Below are positions 2,289 through 16,610 of a DNA stretch of 24,271 bases, one piece after another. The stretch spans positions 1 through 24,271 of IMG/VR virus record IMGVR_UViG_3300042516_000551. One strand, given 5' to 3'. Position numbers and translations under genes: made by a program. The notes under the pieces are model-generated. The model worked only from the letters and a program-made list of their open reading frames with translations. It did no database searches and was not told where the DNA came from. Every line of letters begins with the position of its first letter. The stretch's first letter is position 1. The stretch is from a virus.

Positions 2289-4357
2289 AGATTAGGAATA
2301 TTAGGTGTGTTAGATATACCTGCACCAATAGTCATAGCCTTTAATTGGGCTTCTGCTTGGAACTCTGCTGTCTTTAATTCTAGGTCTGCTTGGGCTTTCT
2401 CTCGCTTTAGCTGAATCTCAGCCTGTGCTTTAGCCTGTTGCAACTGCATATCAGCTTCTGCTTTCTGCTGTGATAACTGCATCTCTTGTTGAGCTTTAGC
2501 TTGGTCAATCTGCATCTGAGCCTGTGCTTGAGCCATGTAAGCCTGTACTGCTGGGTCTACTGGTGCTTGCTGTGGCTGTGGATTAGCAATCTGTTGCTCT
2601 AGTTCTGGTGGAATCTCTTTAAAGAACTCGCTTGAATCTTTATATCCAGCAGCCTCAATGAATCTACCTAGAGTTTCTCTGTATTGTGTCAATGTCACTA
2701 ATGGATTATTAAAGCCTTGAGTCTGGAGAATCTGCTCTTGCTTCTGTAATACCACAGCTACCATAGCCATCTGTTCTTGCTTATTGCCAGTTCCTAGACC
2801 TACATTGATAGAGATGTCAAAGCCATTTACCCATTCTCTAGGGTCAATAGAAACATATTTACCTCTTAATCGGATTACTCTAGCCTTGTCTTGGTACTTG
2901 CAAAGTAACTGCAATATCTTCTCGAATAGGTCTTTTACTCCTGTTTCAGCAAAGATTCTAGCTACCATCTCTACTTTACCGGCTGCTGCGGACTGCATTG
3001 CTGCAACTGCTGTAGCTGTAGTGTTTTGTAGGATGTTAGGGTCTAAACCTTGTTGAGCATCATTAATACCTGTGCGCTTAGACTGTACTTGGTCTAGATA
3101 CTGCAACATAGGGAATGATTGACTTGCTGTTGGTGGTACTGATAAAGGCACAATAGCATTTGGGTTCTTGATGCGAACAATACCACCTGCTGTAACAGTT
3201 AGCATATCGTCTAGGTTTACTTGACCTTCAACTACACCCATTCTTGAGTTATTAGTTAAGTACAAGTTATCTAGAATCTGTCTAGTGACTGTTGATTTAA
3301 TTAACTGTAAGTCTATTGCTCGGTCTGCAAAGCTATGACCAAAGAACTTATGAGGCATAGGAATAGGGCAGATTGAGCAGAAAGGTACAAAGTCTACTTC
3401 TTCATTATCTAGAATCTCTGTGCCGGCATAGGTAATCTTGCGCAACTCAGCAATACCATCATTGTCATAATCAGTCTTGATATAGCACTCATAGACTTCA
3501 ATATCTTGCATAGTGTGGTCTAGTGATGATTGCTCATCTGGCATCTCGCCTCGGTCATATCTTGCTACTCTTTCCTCTGTAAAGGTTAAATCTGAGTAAC
3601 TAGGTAAGCCATCTACTAGAGTCTTATTAAAGCCCATAGCTACTAATTCGCTACGAGTTGTTAGTTTTCTATGAGCTACAAATGGAGCATCAGCAATAGT
3701 TCTAGCCTTTTTAGAGATTAAGAACTCCTCTGGTGGGACATTCTCAACAATCACCTTACCATTATTCTTTGTTCTCTTTAAAGTAACGCTGTATGAATAT
3801 ACAGGTGGCAATGGCATCCCTGTCATCTGGTCTACCGTTTGAGCCATCTCTACTTCTTCCATCTGCTGACTAACGACTTCTACTTCTTCGTCAGCCAAAA
3901 GCATGGTTAATTCTTCTTCATTTAGGTCTTGATACTTCTCTTTGGTGACATCTATCTGGTCATCCCAATAGACTTTCACAATACCATTCTTCTGTAACAA
4001 GGCATCCTTGAACCAGTTATGGAACAGAATTACACCTGAGTTGTCATGGTTTAGCACCCAATTGACATACTCGGTAGCTTGTCTAGCCTTTTCCTCATCT
4101 CCAGCACCTTTAGGTTCAAATCGAACCATCTCGTCTGATTGAGTAAATACTCTTAGTAATTGTGGCAATGCACCATCAACTACTTCAGCTACTTCACCAG
4201 TAACAATAGAGCTACGACCTTCTACTTCATTGCCATAGGCTTCTCTGTTGTAATACTGAAGCGCTCTCCTGCGCTCATCAGTAGTCTCTGTCTGAATGAA
4301 ACCCAAAGAGTTATCAATCTCAGAATCCAGTATGCCTTTAAGAGTATTGTTATCCAT
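2285..4357 (-). CDS. Portal protein, P22-like
   Basis: This 690-residue protein should form the dodecameric portal at the head vertex through which DNA enters and leaves. The N-terminal part carries the pattern RRRALQYYNREAYGNEVEGR with SSIVTGEVAEVVDG after it, typical of P22-type portals. A middle region with DYDNDGIAELRKITYAG and FVPFCSICPIPMPHKFFG is also characteristic. The C-terminus (~595-675) is a long Gln/Ala/Lys-rich coiled coil, comparable to the P22 barrel. The length is close to the family norm (~700). The ATG lies immediately after the terminase stop codon with no gap, and the gene ends in an ATGA overlap with the next one. Confidence 0.92.
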   Translation of the reverse strand: MDNNTLKGILDSEIDNSLGFIQTETTDERRRALQYYNREAYGNEVEGRSSIVTGEVAEVVDGALPQLLRVFTQSDEMVRFEPKGAGDEEKARQATEYVNWVLNHDNSGVILFHNWFKDALLQKNGIVKVYWDDQIDVTKEKYQDLNEEELTMLLADEEVEVVSQQMEEVEMAQTVDQMTGMPLPPVYSYSVTLKRTKNNGKVIVENVPPEEFLISKKARTIADAPFVAHRKLTTRSELVAMGFNKTLVDGLPSYSDLTFTEERVARYDRGEMPDEQSSLDHTMQDIEVYECYIKTDYDNDGIAELRKITYAGTEILDNEEVDFVPFCSICPIPMPHKFFGHSFADRAIDLQLIKSTVTRQILDNLYLTNNSRMGVVEGQVNLDDMLTVTAGGIVRIKNPNAIVPLSVPPTASQSFPMLQYLDQVQSKRTGINDAQQGLDPNILQNTTATAVAAMQSAAAGKVEMVARIFAETGVKDLFEKILQLLCKYQDKARVIRLRGKYVSIDPREWVNGFDISINVGLGTGNKQEQMAMVAVVLQKQEQILQTQGFNNPLVTLTQYRETLGRFIEAAGYKDSSEFFKEIPPELEQQIANPQPQQAPVDPAVQAYMAQAQAQMQIDQAKAQQEMQLSQQKAEADMQLQQAKAQAEIQLKREKAQADLELKTAEFQAEAQLKAMTIGAGISNTPNIPNL

Positions 4358-11160: not shown

Positions 11161-11387
11161 GCTTTGGTTGATTTGTTCTTTTTCCATAATTCAGTTAATC
11201 CTTCCTTTAGTTTGTCTAGGGCTACAACACCCCTCTTTTCTAAAACTTTACCTAAGTACCTTCTTCTTTCTGATAACTTCATGCTTGCAATAAATCTTAG
11301 CTCGCACTCATACCTGTACTGCTCATGCTCCTGCTGAAATAAGTCTCTGTCTATACTGTCCTTCTGTTTCACCAGTTTTCGGTTCAA
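11157..11387 (-). CDS. Small conserved protein (DUF7696-like?)
   Basis: A 76-residue protein with EHEQYRYECELRFIASMKLS and ERRRYLGKVLEKRG followed by ALDKLKEGLTELWKK. This matches my memory of short phage proteins grouped as DUF7696, though I am unsure of the number. Translation starts at TTG (11387), with a perfect AAGGAG seven bases upstream, inside the 3' end of the DUF1376 gene (65-base overlap in another frame). Its stop forms an ATGA with the next gene. Function unknown. Confidence 0.7.
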   Translation of the reverse strand: MNRKLVKQKDSIDRDLFQQEHEQYRYECELRFIASMKLSERRRYLGKVLEKRGVVALDKLKEGLTELWKKNKSTKA

Positions 11388-12078
11388 TGCCTAACTCCTT
11401 ACCTTTTGCCATAACACCACCTAAAGTCTGATGCCATTGGATTGTAGGCTTATCAATTGTTCTTACAGATTCTACTCTCTGGCTTCTTACCCAGTTTCTC
11501 CAAGTTGCAAACCAGTCCAGCTTAGTACCCTTCTGTCCACCTTGAGCTATCCAATAATCTTTAAATTGATTCCAGACATTCAAAGGTTTTAGGTCTGGTC
11601 TTTCCTTCTTGCAAAAATCTTCCCATTCTTTTGGCAGTTCTTCTAAAGATAATCTTTTGGCTTTGGGAGCTTTAGCGACATCAATACTATGGTTTATGGT
11701 TAATGGTTTATGGTTCTTGGTTAAGGTTATGTCTGGGTTATCTTTGGAAACCGTTTGGGTTTTCTTAGGTCTACCACCCTTTTTTCCATTTACCTGATTG
11801 ACTTCAGCCTTGTCATGGTACTGAGAAATCTCATCATCACAACGCTTATGATGCCATCCATTTGATTCCAAAGTAAAAAATTCTTTGAGAATAATCCCAA
11901 CAATTTCCGAGTAAGAACCGAGTCTTAACCGCCTAATAACCGACTGGGTTTCTTCTGGGATAGCTTGTTCTGTGTCGTAATAATAGTTTATGAGTCTAAA
12001 GTAAATAGCTTCTTCTTCTAGGCTTAGATGACTTGTTGCGAGATGCCAGTCTGCAATATTGAATTTGTAGTAATACAT
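11323..12078 (-). CDS. DUF1376 (YdaU-type) replication protein
   Basis: A 251-residue protein. Residues ~1-95 form the DUF1376 domain, a winged-helix-like fold found in phage replication initiators, seen as YYKFNIADWHLATSHLSLEE and EAIYFRLINYYYDTEQAIP. A basic linker (GKKGGRPKKTQ) and a low-complexity TKNHKPLTINHS stretch follow. A C-terminal domain (~150-215: LPKEWEDFCKKERPDL, LDWFATWRNWVRSQ) resembles the DNA-binding end of DnaT and helicase-loader proteins. It likely starts replication or loads the helicase. The ATG at 12078 has GAAGGAAA upstream. The linker DNA carries a heptamer repeat that may be the origin. Confidence 0.83.
   Translation of the reverse strand: MYYYKFNIADWHLATSHLSLEEEAIYFRLINYYYDTEQAIPEETQSVIRRLRLGSYSEIVGIILKEFFTLESNGWHHKRCDDEISQYHDKAEVNQVNGKKGGRPKKTQTVSKDNPDITLTKNHKPLTINHSIDVAKAPKAKRLSLEELPKEWEDFCKKERPDLKPLNVWNQFKDYWIAQGGQKGTKLDWFATWRNWVRSQRVESVRTIDKPTIQWHQTLGGVMAKGKELGIEPKTGETEGQYRQRLISAGA
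11689..11730. repeat. Heptamer array, possible replication iterons
   Basis: Six consecutive seven-base units occur with no gaps. On the plus strand the first four are ATGGTTT, ATGGTTA, ATGGTTT and ATGGTTC, and the last two are degenerate (TTGGTTA, AGGTTAT). The array lies inside the DUF1376 gene, in the linker-coding part, much as lambda's origin iterons lie within gene O. A seven-base period is not a codon multiple, so it is not a simple peptide repeat. Origin function is inferred. Confidence 0.6.
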
Positions 12079-12160
12079 AGCTTTCCTTCAAAAGCCTTCA
12101 CTTATAAGGAACTGGCAGGTGGGTGAAGGAGTCCACTTTTCGGTAGCGAACCTAGCCAGT
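12079..12160 (-). promoter_or_regulatory. Structured leader of the DUF1376 gene
   Basis: Between the VRR-NUC stop and the DUF1376 start the minus-strand RNA can fold in competing ways. ACTGGCTAGGT (12160-12150) pairs with ACCTGCCAGT (12120-12111), with one bulge, closing small TTCG/CGAA and GTGG/CCAC hairpins. Alternatively CCTTCAC (12129-12123) pairs with GTGAAGG (12101-12095). The hexamer TGAAGG of that site is repeated in the Shine-Dalgarno, which itself sits in the loop of a GCTTT/AAAGC hairpin. This could control translation or transcription of the replication gene. Confidence 0.45.
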
Positions 12161-12167
12161 AATTAGA

Positions 12168-12443
12168 TTAAACCATATTTTTTACAAAATCAATAGCTTC
12201 TTGTGGATTATTTATTCTTATTACCGGAGACCCTTGCCAAGTCCTTTGAAACTCTAGCTGCGCAGGTGTGAATGATGCCTTGTCATCTCGCTTGACTTCT
12301 ATAAGGTAGGTCTGGCCATTCATCCCAGCCAACAGGTCTGGGCAGCCTTTGCCGACTTCGTGCAGGTGGAATACAGACATCCCCATAGCTCTTAAGTGTT
12401 CAACTATGGCTTTTTGGTTAATATCTACTCTCTTAGCTCTCAT
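12168..12443 (-). CDS. VRR-NUC nuclease
   Basis: A 91-residue stand-alone VRR-NUC domain of the PD-(D/E)XK superfamily. The catalytic set is visible: GKGCPDLLAG with D36, then YLIEVKRD with E49 and K51, and SFTPAQLEF with its Gln. Family members cut DNA junctions or flaps; in phages they are usually near replication genes, as here. It is the first gene of the leftward early operon. The ATG at 12443 has AAGGAAAACC upstream, 36 bases from the -10 of the predicted promoter. Length is normal for the phage version. Confidence 0.88.
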   Translation of the reverse strand: MRAKRVDINQKAIVEHLRAMGMSVFHLHEVGKGCPDLLAGMNGQTYLIEVKRDDKASFTPAQLEFQRTWQGSPVIRINNPQEAIDFVKNMV

Positions 12444-12551: not shown

Positions 12552-12836
12552 ATGAAATACGAGTTCAAAAATACAGATGGCAGGTCACAGTCTTTTAGAG
12601 CAACATCATTTTTAGATGTATTAGATTTGGTTAATGACATCCAAGCCCATGAAGATTCTGGCTGGACTTTCTTTATTGATGGTGTTGAGTGTTCAATTGA
12701 AGATATTGTTCTTCATGCCTCTATTAAAGATGCCAACAGAATTGCAAAAAGAAATGAAACAAAAAAACAGGTTCGCATTAGTGTAGGAGTTACTTGTTTG
12801 GCTAATACATATCGCACAGTTTGGGTAAAGAAATAA
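12552..12836 (+). CDS. First gene of the rightward operon, unknown function
   Basis: A 94-residue soluble protein that I do not recognise. It contains FRATSFLDVLDLVNDIQAHE and GWTFFIDGVECSIEDIVLH, a mixed alpha/beta pattern, and a basic C-terminus. No catalytic motif or membrane segment. It opens the operon that runs divergently from the VRR-NUC gene. The start is preceded by TTGAAAGGTTTA, a 12-base leader repeated before two other genes of the block. The next gene's AAGGAG overlaps its stop. As first gene it could be a host-takeover or control protein, but nothing in the sequence shows this. Confidence 0.7.
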   Translation: MKYEFKNTDGRSQSFRATSFLDVLDLVNDIQAHEDSGWTFFIDGVECSIEDIVLHASIKDANRIAKRNETKKQVRISVGVTCLANTYRTVWVKK

Positions 12837-12845
12837 GGAGCAGCC

Positions 12846-12926
12846 ATGAAAGTTACTAAGTTAGATATTTTAGGTGCAGCAGTTTTAGGCGCAATTATTG
12901 GTTCAATGTTTGCTTTGTTTATTTAA
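12846..12926 (+). CDS. 26-aa single-TM microprotein
   Basis: A short gene with a perfect AAGGAG five bases before its ATG. It encodes 26 residues: a basic-polar head (MKVTKLD) and one membrane helix (ILGAAVLGAIIGSMFALFI) with small-residue GxxxG-like packing. Its TAA carries the Shine-Dalgarno of the next gene, so it is wedged tightly between two genes. Function unknown; small phage membrane peptides often act on the host envelope, which is only a possibility here. Confidence 0.65.
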   Translation: MKVTKLDILGAAVLGAIIGSMFALFI

Positions 12927-12936
12927 GGAGAAGATG

Positions 12937-13188
12937 ATGACTTTTGAAGAACTAGTTAATGACTTGATGGCTGATGAATATAACCCTAACAAGGTTAATA
13001 ACTTCCTAGAAGCTATGGAACAGACCAGCAAAGAGCAAGGTGAGCGACTCCAAGAGTTGCTAGAGAACAGAGACTTTGAGACTCTAGGCAGATGGGTCTG
13101 GAATCACACAGTAGAAGTCATGGAAGGTTATGCCAATGACAGGGCTAACTATGAGATTGACAATCGCTCTAAATGGGATGAAAGATGA
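12937..13188 (+). CDS. Unknown helical acidic protein
   Basis: An 83-residue protein from the chosen start, with FEELVNDLMADEYNPNKVNN and FETLGRWVWNHTVEVMEGYA. Almost wholly helical and acidic; not recognised. Two adjacent ATGs (12934, 12937) follow AAGGAG; the second has the better six-base spacing. The frame opens further upstream but only across the preceding small gene. The TGA overlaps the next small gene's ATG (ATGA). Context is the accessory part of the recombination operon. Confidence 0.7.
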   Translation: MTFEELVNDLMADEYNPNKVNNFLEAMEQTSKEQGERLQELLENRDFETLGRWVWNHTVEVMEGYANDRANYEIDNRSKWDER

Positions 13189-13292
13189 TAGACAAATACC
13201 GCAGGTTGAGATATTCAGGTTGCAGTAAGTCTTTGGCTTTATATTTTATTTGGCGCAGTTTTTTAATTAAGTTTTTAAGGAGAAATAAATGA
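13185..13292 (+). CDS. 35-aa basic microprotein
   Basis: A small gene fixed at both ends by ATGA overlaps: its ATG overlaps the previous stop and its TGA overlaps the DUF1071 ATG. The product starts MIDKYRRLRYSGCSKSLALY and continues with an aromatic, hydrophobic and basic stretch (FIWRSFLIKFLRRNK). It could be an amphipathic or membrane-associated peptide. The double overlap and full use of the space between neighbours support it as a real gene. Function unknown. Confidence 0.6.
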   Translation: MIDKYRRLRYSGCSKSLALYFIWRSFLIKFLRRNK

Positions 13293-13819
13293 GTAAATAT
13301 GCAGAATTAAGAATGATAGATGTCTCAAGCAAGATTGAGAAAAAGAATGGTCTTAGCTACTTATCATGGGCTTGGGCTTGTGACCAGTTGCTACAGCAAG
13401 ACTCAATGGCCACTTGGTCTTATGGCCAGCCAGTATTGTTTGGTGAGACTGTGATGGTATTTTGCACAGTCAATGCTTTTGGTAAGTCTATGACTGCACA
13501 GCTACCGGTAATGGACTACCGCAATAAAGCCATACCTAACCCAGATGCTTTTGCAGTTAATACAGCTATGCAGAGATGCCTAGCCAAAGCTATTGCCTTG
13601 CATGGTATCGGCTTGTATATTTATGCTGGTGAGGACTTACCACAGGAAGATGCAGAGCCGGTAGATGTTACAGAGCTAGAAGAAATGATTGTCTTGTCAA
13701 AAGACATGGATGAGTTAAAGAAGAACTTTGCTCATGGCTACAAGGTAGCAAGTAAAGACAAAACAGCTCTACTCAGGATTAACAAAGCAAAAGAAGATAG
13801 AAAGGCACAATTAGCATGA
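13289..13819 (+). CDS. DUF1071 single-strand annealing protein (Sak3-type)
   Basis: A 176-residue protein with the DUF1071 signature: GLSYLSWAWACDQLLQQD near residue 22, VFCTVNAFGKSMTAQLPVMD in the middle, and AVNTAMQRCLAKAIALHGIG with LYIYAGEDLP around residues 89-118. DUF1071 proteins are grouped with Sak3-type annealing proteins (Rad52/Erf-like), which pair complementary single strands in phage recombination. It is three small genes upstream of the YqaJ exonuclease, the usual partner that makes the single-strand ends. The ATG has AAGGAG seven bases upstream. Confidence 0.86.
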   Translation: MSKYAELRMIDVSSKIEKKNGLSYLSWAWACDQLLQQDSMATWSYGQPVLFGETVMVFCTVNAFGKSMTAQLPVMDYRNKAIPNPDAFAVNTAMQRCLAKAIALHGIGLYIYAGEDLPQEDAEPVDVTELEEMIVLSKDMDELKKNFAHGYKVASKDKTALLRINKAKEDRKAQLA

Positions 13820-13980
13820 GCCACTTAGACGATATTGACAAAGCATATGTCCCAGCAGCAAAAACAAATGTTGCTGAAACTTTAAAAAAACTAGGGTGGA
13901 CACCACCTAGCGAAGATAAGAATTTTCAAGAAAAATGGCAGCTTTTTAAACACTTAGCATATAGGAATGAAACAAGATGA
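13816..13980 (+). CDS. 54-aa protein of unknown function
   Basis: A small gene bounded by an ATGA overlap on each side. Its 54 residues begin MSHLDDIDKAYVPAAKTNVA and include the segment ETLKKLGWTPPSED, a pattern seen in short phage proteins next to replication genes, where a similar KLGWTPP motif recurs. The rest is polar and helical. Translation is evidently coupled to the DUF1071 gene. Function unknown. Confidence 0.65.
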   Translation: MSHLDDIDKAYVPAAKTNVAETLKKLGWTPPSEDKNFQEKWQLFKHLAYRNETR

Positions 13981-14159
13981 AGATGGATGACCAAAAAGAC
14001 TACTCAGATATTTGGATTGACCTAATGGCAGAAGTAAAGATGTTGCACCACTACTGTATATCCGGTGACTGGACTACCGCAATCCAAACATCTAAGAACT
14101 GTAGCATTTATGCAGATGAACTTTCTCTTGTTCTTAAAGAGATGTCTGAAGTAAAATGA
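13977..14159 (+). CDS. 60-aa protein of unknown function
   Basis: A small acidic, helical protein with IWIDLMAEVKMLHHYCISGD and a following helix ending in LSLVLKEMSEVK. Two Cys (CISGDW and NCSIYADE). It has no known motif. ATGA overlaps join it to the gene before and the membrane microprotein after, so it is part of the coupled chain between the annealing protein and the exonuclease. Confidence 0.65.
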   Translation: MKMDDQKDYSDIWIDLMAEVKMLHHYCISGDWTTAIQTSKNCSIYADELSLVLKEMSEVK

Positions 14160-14242
14160 TTACTATAATTCTTGTCCTTTTATTAGGTTTTTTAGCAGGG
14201 TTAGCCTGTGTAGGGGTAATCCTTTGGTTAGGGGGTAGATGA
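14156..14242 (+). CDS. 28-aa single-TM microprotein
   Basis: A small gene held by ATGA overlaps on both sides. The 28-residue product is almost all membrane helix (ITIILVLLLGFLAGLACVGV and then ILWLGGR), with a Gly/Ala face and one Cys. It is the second single-helix microprotein in this operon. It also supplies the purine-rich AGGGGGT used as ribosome binding site of the exonuclease gene, so it may serve partly for translational coupling. Confidence 0.6.
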   Translation: MITIILVLLLGFLAGLACVGVILWLGGR

Positions 14243-14868
14243 TGGAACAAAGAACAGAAGAATGGTTTGCAGCCAGACTAGGCAAAGTAACTGCTAGTAA
14301 AGTATCGGCAGTCTTGGCAAAGAAAGATAGTGCCACTAGGTCAGATTATTTGACAGACCTAGTTTTGGAAAGACTAACAGGCAAGCAGCAGGAGTTCTAC
14401 CAGAATGATGCTATGCAATGGGGAACAGATACAGAGCCTCAAGCAAGAATGGCTTATGAAGCATTTAAAGGTGTGTTAGTGGATGAAATGGGCTTTATTG
14501 ACCATCATAGTATTAAATACTTTGGATGCAGTCCTGATGGGCTTGTAGAAGAAGATGGTCTTGTAGAGATTAAATGTCCTAATTCAAAGACTCATATTTC
14601 TACTTTATTGAGTGGTAAAGCACCAACTAAGTATATTCCCCAGATACAGACTCAGATGGCTGTGATGAACCGCCAATGGTGTGACTTTGTATCTTTTGAC
14701 CCAAGACTTCCAGAGGATTTGCAGTTGTTTGTTATTAGAGTAGATAGAGATAATGAATACATTGCAAAGCTAGAAGAAGAAGTAGTAGAATTTTTAGATG
14801 AAGTAGAAAAAACAGTAACTAAATTGAAAGGTTTAAAAGATGGCAGTCAAGAAACAACTAAAAGCTAA
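14239..14868 (+). CDS. YqaJ / lambda-type exonuclease
   Basis: A 209-residue recombination exonuclease. It begins with the family pattern QRTEEWFAARLGKVTASK. Metal-binding and catalytic residues are visible: E66 region (WGTDTEPQAR), D100 in GCSPDGL, E110 and K112 in LVEIKCP, and the Gln helix YIPQIQTQM at ~132-140. It should degrade one strand of duplex ends 5' to 3', giving substrate to the DUF1071 annealing protein in the same operon. The start is one of two adjacent ATGs (14239, 14242) after AGGGGG. Its 3' end overlaps the SSB-like gene by 29 bases. Confidence 0.92.
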   Translation: MMEQRTEEWFAARLGKVTASKVSAVLAKKDSATRSDYLTDLVLERLTGKQQEFYQNDAMQWGTDTEPQARMAYEAFKGVLVDEMGFIDHHSIKYFGCSPDGLVEEDGLVEIKCPNSKTHISTLLSGKAPTKYIPQIQTQMAVMNRQWCDFVSFDPRLPEDLQLFVIRVDRDNEYIAKLEEEVVEFLDEVEKTVTKLKGLKDGSQETTKS

Positions 14869-15076
14869 AGCAGGCACTTACACAAACAAACAGGGAGAAG
14901 AAAAAACTCGCTATGTCAATGTAGGTGTTTTATTGGAAACCAGCAAGGGAGAGATGCTAAAGATTGAATCTCTACCTGTACCTTTTGATGGTTGGATTTA
15001 CTTTGCTGATTTAGAGAAGCGAGAAGTAGGACAAAACCCTACAACAGCACCAGTAGAGCAAGACATTCCCTTCTAA
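14840..15076 (+). CDS. SSB-like protein with acidic DIPF tail
   Basis: A 78-residue protein, LKAKAGTYTNKQGEEKTRYV followed by NVGVLLETSKGEMLKIESLP, beta-rich and basic at its start. The last residues are EQDIPF, the same type of acidic tip ending in Pro-Phe that bacterial and phage SSB proteins use to recruit partners. Placed directly after the exonuclease, with a 29-base overlap, it fits a small single-strand DNA-binding or recombination accessory protein. The OB fold cannot be confirmed by eye. The ATG follows the 12-base TTGAAAGGTTTA leader. Confidence 0.6.
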   Translation: MAVKKQLKAKAGTYTNKQGEEKTRYVNVGVLLETSKGEMLKIESLPVPFDGWIYFADLEKREVGQNPTTAPVEQDIPF

Positions 15077-15172
15077 CTAACAATGGGCGAAAGCGGATGC
15101 TGTTGTGCCACACCTGTATAGGGATTGTATTGCAGACAGATGCAGCGAGTAGCCCAGTTTTGAAAGGTTTAT
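15077..15172 (+). other. GC-richer non-coding spacer, possible structured RNA
   Basis: This is the only sizeable gap in the rightward operon. Bases 15084-15156 are clearly richer in G+C (about 53%) than the flanks, and the ends can pair (TGGGC with GCCCA). Inner short inverted repeats occur (TGCA...TGCA, GTG...CAC). A 12-codon ORF (MGESGCCCATPV, 15083) lacks a ribosome binding site. The gap ends in the TTGAAAGGTTTA leader of the HTH gene. It may be a structured leader, attenuator or small RNA; no known riboswitch was recognised. Confidence 0.35.
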
Positions 15173-15550
15173 ATGAGTCAAAGAGAAATGAAACAAAAGC
15201 GAATCCAGTATTTATTACTCAGGATGCAAAAAGAGCCAATGAACTGTCACCAGATGGCAGATGCAGTTAATTTGAGTCACAAGTCATTCACCAAATATTT
15301 GACAGAGATGCGCTACAAAAAGCAAGTCTATATAACTCATTACAACAGGAGCGCAACAGGCGCATATACTGTTTTCTACCAGACCGGAAATTTGCCTGAT
15401 GCAGAAAAGCCATTGCCATTTGGTCAGCAAGAATATAACAAAAGGTATAAAGAAAAGATGTACCCAGAGTTAATTAGAAAGCCAGCCAAATTTAATGCTA
15501 GACCAGACTTTGCTGCCCATTGGCTTTTTAATCCAATAGCTGAGATTTAA
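15173..15550 (+). CDS. Winged-helix/HTH DNA-binding protein
   Basis: A 125-residue protein. Residues ~1-60 form a helix-turn-helix with wing: RIQYLLLRMQKEPMNCHQMA, then VNLSHKSFTKYLTEMRYKKQ and the wing strand YITHYNRSATGAYTVFYQTG. The rest is a Pro/Lys-rich extension. It is probably a phage transcription regulator and a candidate for binding the divergent control region, though there is no direct proof. The ATG at 15173 follows TTGAAAGGTTTA, and a 96-base non-coding spacer separates it from the recombination genes. Confidence 0.7.
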   Translation: MSQREMKQKRIQYLLLRMQKEPMNCHQMADAVNLSHKSFTKYLTEMRYKKQVYITHYNRSATGAYTVFYQTGNLPDAEKPLPFGQQEYNKRYKEKMYPELIRKPAKFNARPDFAAHWLFNPIAEI

Positions 15551-15730
15551 ATGATAAAAAGAATATTAATGAGAATTAAATTTATCACCATATACTTATT
15601 TTTTGCTTTCATGCTAGGTAATCTTTTTGGTAGCTATGGTAGCTATGTCTTTATAGCCAAGGACTGTGCAGTTATGCAGACATTCAGAATTGGTGAAATT
15701 GCTTATTCTTGCAAAAGGTTAGTCCCATGA
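15551..15730 (+). CDS. 59-aa membrane microprotein
   Basis: A small gene beginning directly after the HTH gene stop (TAA then ATG). It encodes a basic N-terminus (MIKRILMRIK), one membrane helix (FITIYLFFAFMLGNLFG) and a ~30-residue tail with two Cys (KDC and YSC) that may lie outside the cytoplasm. The positive-inside rule suggests N-in, C-out. Its end overlaps the next ATG (ATGA). Function unknown. Confidence 0.65.
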   Translation: MIKRILMRIKFITIYLFFAFMLGNLFGSYGSYVFIAKDCAVMQTFRIGEIAYSCKRLVP

Positions 15731-15873
15731 TTATTGACCCTATAGATTTGGCAGATAGACTGTATGAACTTTTGAAAGCAAGAAATACTAATGGTGGATA
15801 TGTTGTAAGAAAACAACACAGACAGACTGTGCTTGAGGCAGAACATTTACTTAGGGAGTTATTTAAAAGATGA
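15727..15873 (+). CDS. 48-aa helical protein
   Basis: A small gene held by ATGA overlaps at both ends. The 48 residues (IIDPIDLADRLYELLKARNT, then VLEAEHLLRELFKR at the end) predict two amphipathic helices. Not recognised; short two-helix proteins of this sort recur in phage early operons. Function unknown. Confidence 0.62.
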   Translation: MIIDPIDLADRLYELLKARNTNGGYVVRKQHRQTVLEAEHLLRELFKR

Positions 15874-16058
15874 AAGATATGTCGCTAAAACAACAAATTA
15901 ACGACACAACTGAAAAACATATACAAATATCGGACAAGCCAGTTGCATGGACTGATGATGAAATATTAGAGCTGTGGGTTAAAAAAAATAAACTCAATGG
16001 CGCACAGGATATTATTGATTTTGCTAGAGAATTGTTAAAGAAAGCGAGAGAAAAATGA
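15870..16058 (+). CDS. 62-aa protein of unknown function
   Basis: A small soluble protein with MSLKQQINDTTEKHIQISDK at its N-terminus and a helical second half (WTDDEILELWVKKNKLNG, then FARELLKKAREK). No motif recognised. An internal ATG four codons in (MSLKQQ) is a possible alternative start. It is joined by ATGA overlaps to genes on both sides. Confidence 0.62.
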   Translation: MKDMSLKQQINDTTEKHIQISDKPVAWTDDEILELWVKKNKLNGAQDIIDFARELLKKAREK

Positions 16059-16306
16059 ATGAAGAACTAATGAAAGATTTTTGGAGTCAGGTCAATGAAA
16101 TTGAGCAGTTAAGCTGCAAAATAAATAGCTGTCAGTCTATAATTACCATCTGCGCAGAAAGAGCTTTAGGTGATGACTCTGGCGCATTGTGGGCAGCAGC
16201 AGATATTCTTAGCGATATAGAGTCCAAAATGGATGACAGAGTACACAAGCTATGCGCAATCTATAGACAACTTAAAGAACCAGTTAAAAAGGCTAAAAAG
16301 AAATGA
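16055..16306 (+). CDS. 83-aa helical protein of unknown function
   Basis: A helical protein (KDFWSQVNEIEQLSCKINSC, ALWAAADILSDIESKMDDRV) with four Cys and a Lys-rich end (KKAKKK). The regular hydrophobic spacing suggests a small helical bundle. Not recognised. Start and stop both lie in ATGA overlaps, within the accessory end of the rightward operon. Confidence 0.62.
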   Translation: MNEELMKDFWSQVNEIEQLSCKINSCQSIITICAERALGDDSGALWAAADILSDIESKMDDRVHKLCAIYRQLKEPVKKAKKK

Positions 16307-16404
16307 CCTTAGAAAAAGACTTTACCTTGTCAGAAGATGAATTAAAGGTAATAAGAGAAGCCATTAGAAAAACTATGGCTGAGTATTTAGCTAACCAGAA
16401 ATGA
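16303..16404 (+). CDS. 33-aa microprotein
   Basis: A small gene bounded by ATGA overlaps. It encodes 33 residues (MTLEKDFTLSEDELKVIREA, then IRKTMAEYLANQK), forming one amphipathic helix. The exact fit between neighbours and the codon use support it as real, though it is close to the lower limit for confident calling. Function unknown. Confidence 0.52.
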   Translation: MTLEKDFTLSEDELKVIREAIRKTMAEYLANQK

Positions 16405-16610
16405 TTAGATGGTCAGGTACTATACTGTGTTTGATAGGTATAGCCCTGACTAGCCTCAACATATACCCTTTAAACCTCTTATTTGGGCTTGTAGGCAGTT
16501 TTCTGTGGACAGTCCAAGGCTACCTATACAGGGACAATGCTTTGCTCTTGGTGGAGCTTGTAGCAGTTTTGATTTATTTGATAGGAATAGTTAGTATATT
16601 TGTATATTAA
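16401..16610 (+). CDS. Small multi-span membrane protein (DUF6552-like?)
   Basis: A 69-residue membrane protein with two to three helices: TILCLIGIALTSLNIYPLNL, LLFGLVGSFLWTVQGYLY and LLLVELVAVLIYLIGIVSIF. The TSLNIYPLN...GSFLWTVQG pattern resembles small phage and bacterial proteins in which a similar NxYPxN...WxxxG signature occurs, possibly DUF6552. Last gene of the rightward operon, attached by ATGA to the gene before. It may alter the host membrane; function unknown. Confidence 0.68.
   Translation: MIRWSGTILCLIGIALTSLNIYPLNLLFGLVGSFLWTVQGYLYRDNALLLVELVAVLIYLIGIVSIFVY

Follow-up and report, generated by a model that had tools for sequence, protein, structure and literature searches.

A structured RNA-like element and small genes that look kept by selection in the recombination block of a freshwater phage

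Genes and features of the block

Here we analysed a virus record of 24,271 bases (IMG/VR record IMGVR_UViG_3300042516_000551, hereafter the window), and in particular a block of genes on its + strand (12552-16610) that is flanked by genes on the - strand. Two features of this block are the subject of the work: a structured RNA-like element at 15084-15156, in which two covarying helices enclose a conserved internal loop, and a series of very small open reading frames (ORFs), seven of which had been proposed as normally overlooked genes by an earlier reading made from the sequence only. The terminase of the window has 65% identity to that of Methylophilales phage Venkman, the closest named relative by this protein, and its Sak has 66% identity over 69% of the query; megablast of 15 kb of the window matched no named phage. 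The features are listed below with protein lengths in amino acids (aa), and genes are called by their first position in the window.

12552-12836, +: first gene of the block, 94 aa (ORF listing)
12846-12926, +: 26-aa single-helix membrane microprotein (ORF, hydropathy)
12934-13188, +: 84-aa conserved protein (conservation, dN/dS)
13185-13292, +: 35-aa strongly basic small protein with ATGA joints on both sides
13289-13819, +: Sak single-strand annealing protein (Pfam SSAP_Sak, 134.8 bits, curated cut-off 22.3)
13816-13980, +: 54-aa small protein with a homologue at 65 of the 80 Sak loci
13977-14159, +: 60-aa conserved small protein, omitted from the earlier list of small genes
14156-14242, +: 28-aa single-helix membrane microprotein ahead of YqaJ
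14239-14868, +: YqaJ-type exonuclease (Pfam YqaJ, 113.7 bits, curated cut-off 22)
14840-15076, +: 78-aa SSB-like protein, so called for its position and its acidic ..DIPF tail, without Pfam match
15084-15156, +: structured RNA-like element (covarying helices P1 and P2 around a conserved internal loop)
15173-15550, +: 125-aa protein with weak similarity to transcriptional regulators (E 0.02-0.03)
15551-15730, +: 59-aa protein with one membrane segment and two invariant cysteines
15727-15873, +: 48-aa small protein
15870-16058, +: 62-aa ORF, poorly conserved (full length in 2 of 40 loci)
16055-16306, +: 83-aa conserved protein
16303-16404, +: 33-aa small protein
16401-16610, +: 69-aa DUF6552 membrane protein with three predicted helices

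A structured element between the SSB-like gene and gene 15173

The unused bases of the region 12846-16610 amount to 7 nucleotides (nt; 12927-12933) and 96 nt (15077-15172), or about 2.7%. The 96-nt gap, which the earlier reading passed over, holds the element and with it the most unusual feature found in this block. Alignment of these 96 bases across relatives showed conserved blocks and paired changes. Helix P1 joins 15084-15088 with 15152-15156, helix P2 joins 15100-15105 with 15134-15139, and the conserved internal loop between them is made of 15089-15099 and 15140-15151. The 5' half consists of a P1 strand, RAAAGCGGAUG and then P2, which varies in sequence and length, and the 3' half of AYGCAGCGAGUA or UGCAGCGAGUA followed by the second P1 strand. 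Because instances were collected with an exact core pattern, the core is conserved by construction, as are one side of P2 pairs 1-2 and one side of the two inner P1 pairs; invariant pairs of this kind add nothing to a covariation score but do raise the percentage of paired cells.

The collection yielded 85 distinct core-to-core strings, including two that we judged to be chance matches (L332, L334). Counts anchored on the core used 64 P1 and 71 P2 strand pairs, 3 of 99 instances fitting neither class of P2. Pairing was more frequent than in any of 1000 shuffles at P1 pairs 1-3 (64 strand pairs) and at P2 pairs 3-4 (50 and 21 strand pairs), with as many as six kinds of pair at a single helix position, and was not clearly above shuffles at P1 pairs 4-5 and P2 pair 6. 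An alignment of 26 sequences (A6), selected by the analyst for a shorter P2 of a single class from the 38 (A5) of 62 non-redundant instances, had 86.5% of its cells paired and both sides changed in 49 cells. Its covariation score was 0.423, against 0.126 (standard deviation 0.021) in shuffles, none of 500 of which reached the observed value, and it was at most 0.151 when the structure was slid. RNAalifold returned the same two helices plus a GC/GC step within the loop. The element is therefore a structured RNA-like feature with two covarying helices around a conserved internal loop.

Two asymmetries bear on the strand. The helices contain 19 G.T cells as against 8 A.C cells, and out of 99 instances the base opposite the fixed inner G of P1 is C in 77 and T in 21 (counted without L332, L334 and the three window copies L081, L212 and L213). 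Together these favour folding of the coding strand, as RNA or as single-stranded DNA. The idea that the element is an unusually stable single fold was tried and set aside (window z 0.76). In six loci (L086, L087, L088, L011, L108 and L105) we observed short forms in which P2 is nearly absent; our model R1 scored those of L011, L105 and L108 at 15.6-21.1 bits and reported none for L086 and L087. Just downstream of the element, L218, L270, L278, L279 and L289 have another G-rich, GAAAGC-like stretch that may form a second hairpin.

Distribution and genomic context of the element

The core pattern of two strings occurs in at least 119 IMG/VR stretches. Among GTDB genomes it was found in four stretches, of which L332 and L334, the two judged to be chance, are in our judgement ABC-transporter coding sequence. 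With stricter filters, model R1 matched 3 of 299 genomes from the family of a Limnohabitans metagenome-assembled genome, and the neighbours of two of these three matches and of a third region resemble phage-derived DNA, by eye only. The same model found nothing in four named-phage records (Venkman, MW202691, MW202674 and Limnohabitans phage DC31), and a blastn comparison of the window stretch with 50,697 phage records yielded two matches of 20 bases (E 1), both outside the two core strings. No Rfam 15 family matched the element, either in the window (E <= 5) or at six other loci (E <= 1). Covarying helices are what it has in common with the curated structured RNAs of that library. A search of the open-access literature with short core strings returned, among the papers listed, only a 7-base string or one 11-base DNA string, and only within such searches can the element be called unpublished.

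The element lies on the coding strand, in many cases shortly after the stop of a phage gene for DNA metabolism. For 46 of 94 elements, against 1 of 94 mirrored positions, the end of a same-strand ORF of at least 80 aa was located 0-15 nt upstream, the corresponding figures for ORFs of at least 60 aa being 57 and 6 (the counts see only ORFs above these lengths), and in 42 of the 46 cases the spacing from stop codon to element is 4-10 nt. An upstream ORF of at least 40 aa was present in 92 of 96 contexts, and a loose pattern for SSB tails fits the C-terminal ends of 39 of these 92 proteins. Pfam was applied to 9 of the 96 upstream proteins, five matching above cut-off (Enc34 ssDNA-binding, RecT, DUF669, Sipho_Gp157 and Pam3_Gp34), two below it and two not at all. 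On the other side, 78 of 96 contexts had an ORF downstream, which in 40 of them starts 10-16 nt past the measured end of the element. Near-identical P2 domains with unrelated flanks were seen in 7 of 82 pairs, which suggests that the element, or its P2, seems to travel between contexts. Two elements flank a gene for a Cys-rich peptide in L202 and such a gene plus a 144-aa ORF in L016, the second copy scoring weakly in both. A peptide of this type (42-51 aa, with a signal-like N-terminus and several cysteines) lies between the SSB-like gene and 15173 in many relatives (L004, L005, L009, L014, L015, L016 and others) and is missing from the window.

The small reading frames are probably genes

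We compared the block with 80 loci fetched through Sak and with further loci fetched through 15173, 12934 and 16055. All seven of the proposed small ORFs (12846, 13185, 13816, 14156, 15551, 15727 and 16303) are present where they had been placed, start with ATG and encode 26, 35, 54, 28, 59, 48 and 33 aa, respectively; the list was accurate in what it contained but left out 13977 (60 aa) and 15870 (62 aa). The sequence-only reading had offered stop codons or loss of frame in close relatives as the observation that would overturn it. In the distinct alleles aligning over at least 90% of each gene, premature stops were found in 0 of 116, so that the seven genes withstood this test. An automatic test of intactness was passed by 108 of the 116, and the other eight, which contain alignment gaps that are not multiples of three, are each a full-length ORF of 47-59 aa. 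For comparison we took 22 control ORFs of 25-62 aa from the other frames and strands of the block; of their 473 alleles 172 were intact and 164 carried a premature stop (summed from the table). The relatives behind the control reach further out than those behind the small genes, and some few control ORFs, in frames tied to real genes, often stay open.

The rates of substitution point in the same direction. We estimated dN/dS by a count-based method along minimum spanning trees, restricted to alleles of similar length that share 60% identity or more, and obtained 0.25 for 13185, 0.19 for 13816, 0.42 for 14156, 0.26 for 15551, 0.31 for 15727 and 0.17 for 16303 (all P <= 4e-5, values that ignore the remaining non-independence of alleles). 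Gene 13977, with dN/dS of 0.19, is kept like the seven. In 12846, second codon positions were hit by none of 30 counted substitutions. These small ORFs could in principle have arisen from gene density and ATGA packing without being functional, as the lack of a significant dN/dS signal in 12846 and the poor conservation of 15870 would allow, but the absence of premature stops in all 116 alleles and dN/dS values of 0.17-0.42 in six of the seven genes make this account hardly tenable. Chance ORFs are likewise opposed by the retention of frame, by dN/dS and by the full-length state of the alleles with gaps, and we rejected them. The seven small ORFs thus look like real genes kept by selection; 15870 is no more than a candidate.

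That such genes are easily missed, as had been claimed, is illustrated by the only homologue of 13816 found in a named phage (MW202674), which sits where nothing is annotated: positions 4001-4102 of this deposited genome (L130) encode an unannotated homologue of the first 35 residues of 13816. In tblastn searches for named-phage relatives (E <= 1), 13816 had this one match and 16401 two, and 13977 and 15551 had none. The small genes show that the coding content of such phages is undercounted and that probable genes can be told from other tiny ORFs by comparison alone.

Overlapping joints and exchange of whole genes

The small genes had been described as fitting between their neighbours by ATGA overlaps. 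This is so at both ends for five of the seven (13185, 13816, 14156, 15727 and 16303 overlap both neighbours by four bases), but 15551 abuts its upstream neighbour and overlaps only the next gene by four bases, and 12846 overlaps neither, with gaps of 9 and 7 nt. Gene 15173 is the only one of the block whose start is neither joined nor nearly joined to the preceding stop. Joints were counted in the window and 40 relative loci on 39 contigs (L112 and L129 share one). The four-base overlap was found at 25 of 25 joints between 13185 and Sak, 24 of 24 between 13816 and 13977, 20 of 20 between 15551 and 15727, 25 of 25 between 16055 and 16303, 25 of 28 between 16303 and 16401, 12 of 13 between 14156 and YqaJ, and 16 of 23 between 13977 and 14156.

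The joint between Sak and 13816 behaves differently, being direct in 12 of 24 cases and containing one or two extra ORFs of 59-87 aa in the other 12, in all of which both outer ends of the insert are again four-base overlaps; the same outer overlaps were present in three of three loci without a detected 13816. At the slot of 12846, scanned in 41 loci (with the addition of L111, from the same contig as L010), 15 loci carry the form of the window, 9 another membrane microprotein of 27-29 aa, and none both. The two forms may be distant relatives, as a DIL..LG-like stretch was seen by eye in both. Gene 15551 is absent from five loci, and there 15727 closely trails 15173. Taking the extra ORFs with their ATGA outer ends together with the swapped slots, relatives differ by whole gene units while most joints keep the overlap.

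Gene pairs joined by ATGA are reported to be coupled by termination-reinitiation (PMC6728339, PMC10666635). By analogy with those pairs, which share with our block the four-base overlap of stop and start found here at most joints, each gene would probably be translated by ribosomes ending the previous one. The block differs from the described cases in that whole extra genes stand between joints that retain ATGA. ORFs of 159-174 aa that by eye resemble HNH homing endonucleases were also seen around YqaJ, the SSB-like gene and 16401 (L005 5592-7369; L013 7619-8095; L086 1902-2378 and 3762-4241; L108 4116-4625).

Proposed role of the element and the block

Placing these results together, we propose, with a probability of roughly two in three, that the block is an early recombination and replication operon of a small phage, encoding Sak, YqaJ, the SSB-like protein and at least eight small proteins kept by selection, in which two coupled chains of genes are separated by a cis-acting RNA element. 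Ribosomes ending one gene would probably translate the next within each of the two ATGA chains. The element lies between the chains, immediately after the stop codon of the SSB-like gene and shortly before the region in which 15173 starts; in the window this is the point at which the ATGA chain breaks. In the simplest reading, which we infer, the element acts in the mRNA in cis and keeps the second chain separate from the first in translation or transcription, possibly through a phage or host protein that binds it. Read in this way, it would be a new phage RNA that acts in cis and stands between two chains of translationally coupled genes. More tentatively, and with a confidence that falls a little short of even, the element may represent a new phage-specific class of structured RNA, with a fixed internal loop between freely varying helices, placed immediately after the stop codons of genes for single-stranded DNA-binding and recombination proteins, recognized by a factor that many unrelated phages or their hosts share, portable between phages, and controlling the next gene.

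Several observations weigh against this proposal. Five measures were run on the A6 alignment and two of them rose barely above shuffles, namely pairs changed on both sides (8 against 6.7, equalled or exceeded in 43 of 500 shuffles) and further pair types (23 against 19.6; 45 of 500). The choice between RNA and single-stranded DNA is weakly decided by the 19 G.T and 8 A.C cells, and the window's z value speaks for no unusually stable fold. Relatives have short, weakly scoring forms of the element, which was not found in L126, L127 or the L018-L080 loci searched. Opposite-strand ORFs overlap the element in 34 of 96 contexts at a length of at least 60 aa and in 6 of 96 at one of at least 150 aa. 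Its proposed action is read from position, strand and structure. As to the genes, dN/dS of 12846 is 0.63 and not significant (P = 0.35), and 15870 has a counterpart of some sort in 4 of 40 loci, being full length in 2.

Could the element instead be a site in DNA, a folded single strand that marks a joint of gene exchange between phages, much as cassette recombination sites do, and is used by Sak-type annealing or by another recombinase? Its place behind stop codons, the near-identical P2 domains with unrelated flanks and the paired copies in L202 and L016 would be consistent with such a role, although the second copies are weak. The excess of G.T over A.C cells is what RNA or a coding-strand fold predicts, however, no gene was demonstrated to be repeatedly swapped beside the element, and exchange at the other joints of the block needs no such element; we therefore regard a DNA exchange site as unlikely. 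Integron attC sites carry conserved AAC and GTT boxes at the base of the hairpin, and the bases flanking P1 vary between instances, which led us to reject an attC site. An attenuator or terminator-like structure lowering transcription of the second chain would account for the G/C-rich P1 and for the TTTT found within 15 nt behind 41 of 99 instances, and in Venkman the SSB-like gene is followed by a G/C stem with a T run. The T run is nevertheless missing in 58 of 99, a terminator scan of the window reports none on the + strand at 15084-15156, and a simple terminator leaves the conserved internal loop unexplained, so that attenuation, too, appears improbable as the function of the element. A cis-acting RNA between the two chains remains the explanation that we prefer.

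A described parallel is the PeSL of T4-like phages, an early promoter joined to a stem-loop; these stem-loops are reported to lie between early phage genes and to have been linked by others to gene shuffling (PMC4503421). Our element resembles PeSL, as described there, in being a stem-loop between early phage genes, and differs in having a conserved internal loop between two helices, in lacking a shown promoter and in occurring in other phages. Sigma-70-like sites, counted with the early promoter of PeSL in mind, numbered 15 against 14.1 in shuffles, by a consensus that may not be that of the host. We consider the element to be worth more than the small proteins alone. A core pattern found in at least 119 IMG/VR stretches, mostly behind phage genes, together with two helices altered by paired changes around a conserved internal loop, suggests a shared mechanism of regulation or exchange that is absent from the RNA library searched (Rfam), and the element is short enough for direct tests with reporters and chemical probing.

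Functions of the small proteins

Three of the seven had been called membrane microproteins, which agrees with a best 18-residue hydropathy of 2.32 in 12846, 2.89 in 14156 and 1.99 in 15551, the other six small proteins computed reaching at most 0.97; 15551 has a single hydrophobic segment and two invariant cysteines. Their placement around a recombination cassette was also correct, the small genes being interleaved with Sak, YqaJ and the SSB-like gene. A further suggestion, that such sets serve host takeover or anti-defence, found no direct support: PHROGs gave no informative match for the seven, Pfam none above cut-off and PADLOC, a library of defence systems and not of counter-defence, none at all. 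Weak resemblances below cut-off (12846 to YetF_N, 13816 to BLACT_WH) were not used.

A homologue of 13816 accompanies Sak at 65 of 80 loci, with identities that fall to about 27-32%, and it retains its place between Sak and YqaJ in those distant loci that were displayed. The profile of 13816 matched nothing significant in the PDB or PHROGs, and its predicted model had a mean pLDDT (predicted local distance difference test) of 77.6 and a predicted template modelling score of 0.41. This persistence beside Sak makes 13816 look more like a partner of the recombination module than like a fast-changing counter-defence gene. The distant group L018-L080 has, in the loci displayed, its own 38-aa membrane microprotein between Sak and YqaJ.

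Under the takeover hypothesis the small genes would act early on host or defence targets, with the membrane microproteins working at the inner membrane. An early operon with recombination genes, the three membrane microproteins and the exchangeable slots would all suit it, and exchange of the kind expected of host-specific genes does occur in the extra ORFs between Sak and 13816 and in the slot of 12846. Considering however that PHROGs and Pfam revealed no homology to described takeover or counter-defence proteins, that PADLOC (defence systems) gave none and that 13816 stays with Sak in 65 of 80 loci, we find it doubtful as an explanation of the whole set. The conserved small proteins beside Sak, above all 13816 and 13977, are instead most likely accessory factors of the recombination module, and those of the exchangeable slots may be host-specific. 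Small-protein genes of phages have been characterized as short, in many cases unannotated, and proposed to act on phage or host (PMC11323111). Ours share the shortness and the frequent lack of annotation, and differ from those described there in that only 16401 has a family match above a curated cut-off.

The membrane protein at the end of the block

The block had been said to end in a membrane protein of two or three helices, and 16401 is indeed predicted as three helices with a mean pLDDT of 91.7. It belongs to DUF6552 (PF20189; 48.9 bits, cut-off 27), a family matched also by 24 of 24 aligned relatives, and 437 IMG/VR stretches encode a relative of it. In GTDB genomes 26 stretches fitted a pattern and none encoded a relative. 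A search of the open-access literature found no paper naming DUF6552, and one combining phage with SemiSWEET found, among the titles and abstracts listed, nothing on such a protein.

Comparisons of profiles and structures show a weak resemblance to SemiSWEET and at most suggest a relation of DUF6552 to SWEET or PQ-loop proteins. Against the PDB, all four matches of profile A4 with E <= 10 are SemiSWEET/MtN3 (best E 0.12), as are four of the five of profile A1 (best E 0.1). MtN3_slv is weakly matched by 20 of 24 family members (best E 0.0025), the protein of the window itself scoring 13.7 bits, under the cut-off of 23.7. The fold search with the predicted model was unremarkable: in Foldseek 12 of the top 13 chains are SWEET or SemiSWEET, all with E >= 1, and in VIA-align MIT bundles came first (Z 10.2), with SemiSWEET 4x5m at Z 6.3 over 51 residues and PnuC at Z 6.4 over 68. 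We take a SWEET-like half-transporter as a lead only.

Neighbouring features

The first gene of the block, 12552-12836, had no tblastn relative in the 80 Sak loci, and its place is taken by other ORFs in several of them. Outside the block, the - strand of the window carries at 12095-12162 a match to the Rfam int-alpA RNA (RF02996; 46.3 bits, gathering score 35.8), located between the genes 11323-12078 and 12168-12443.

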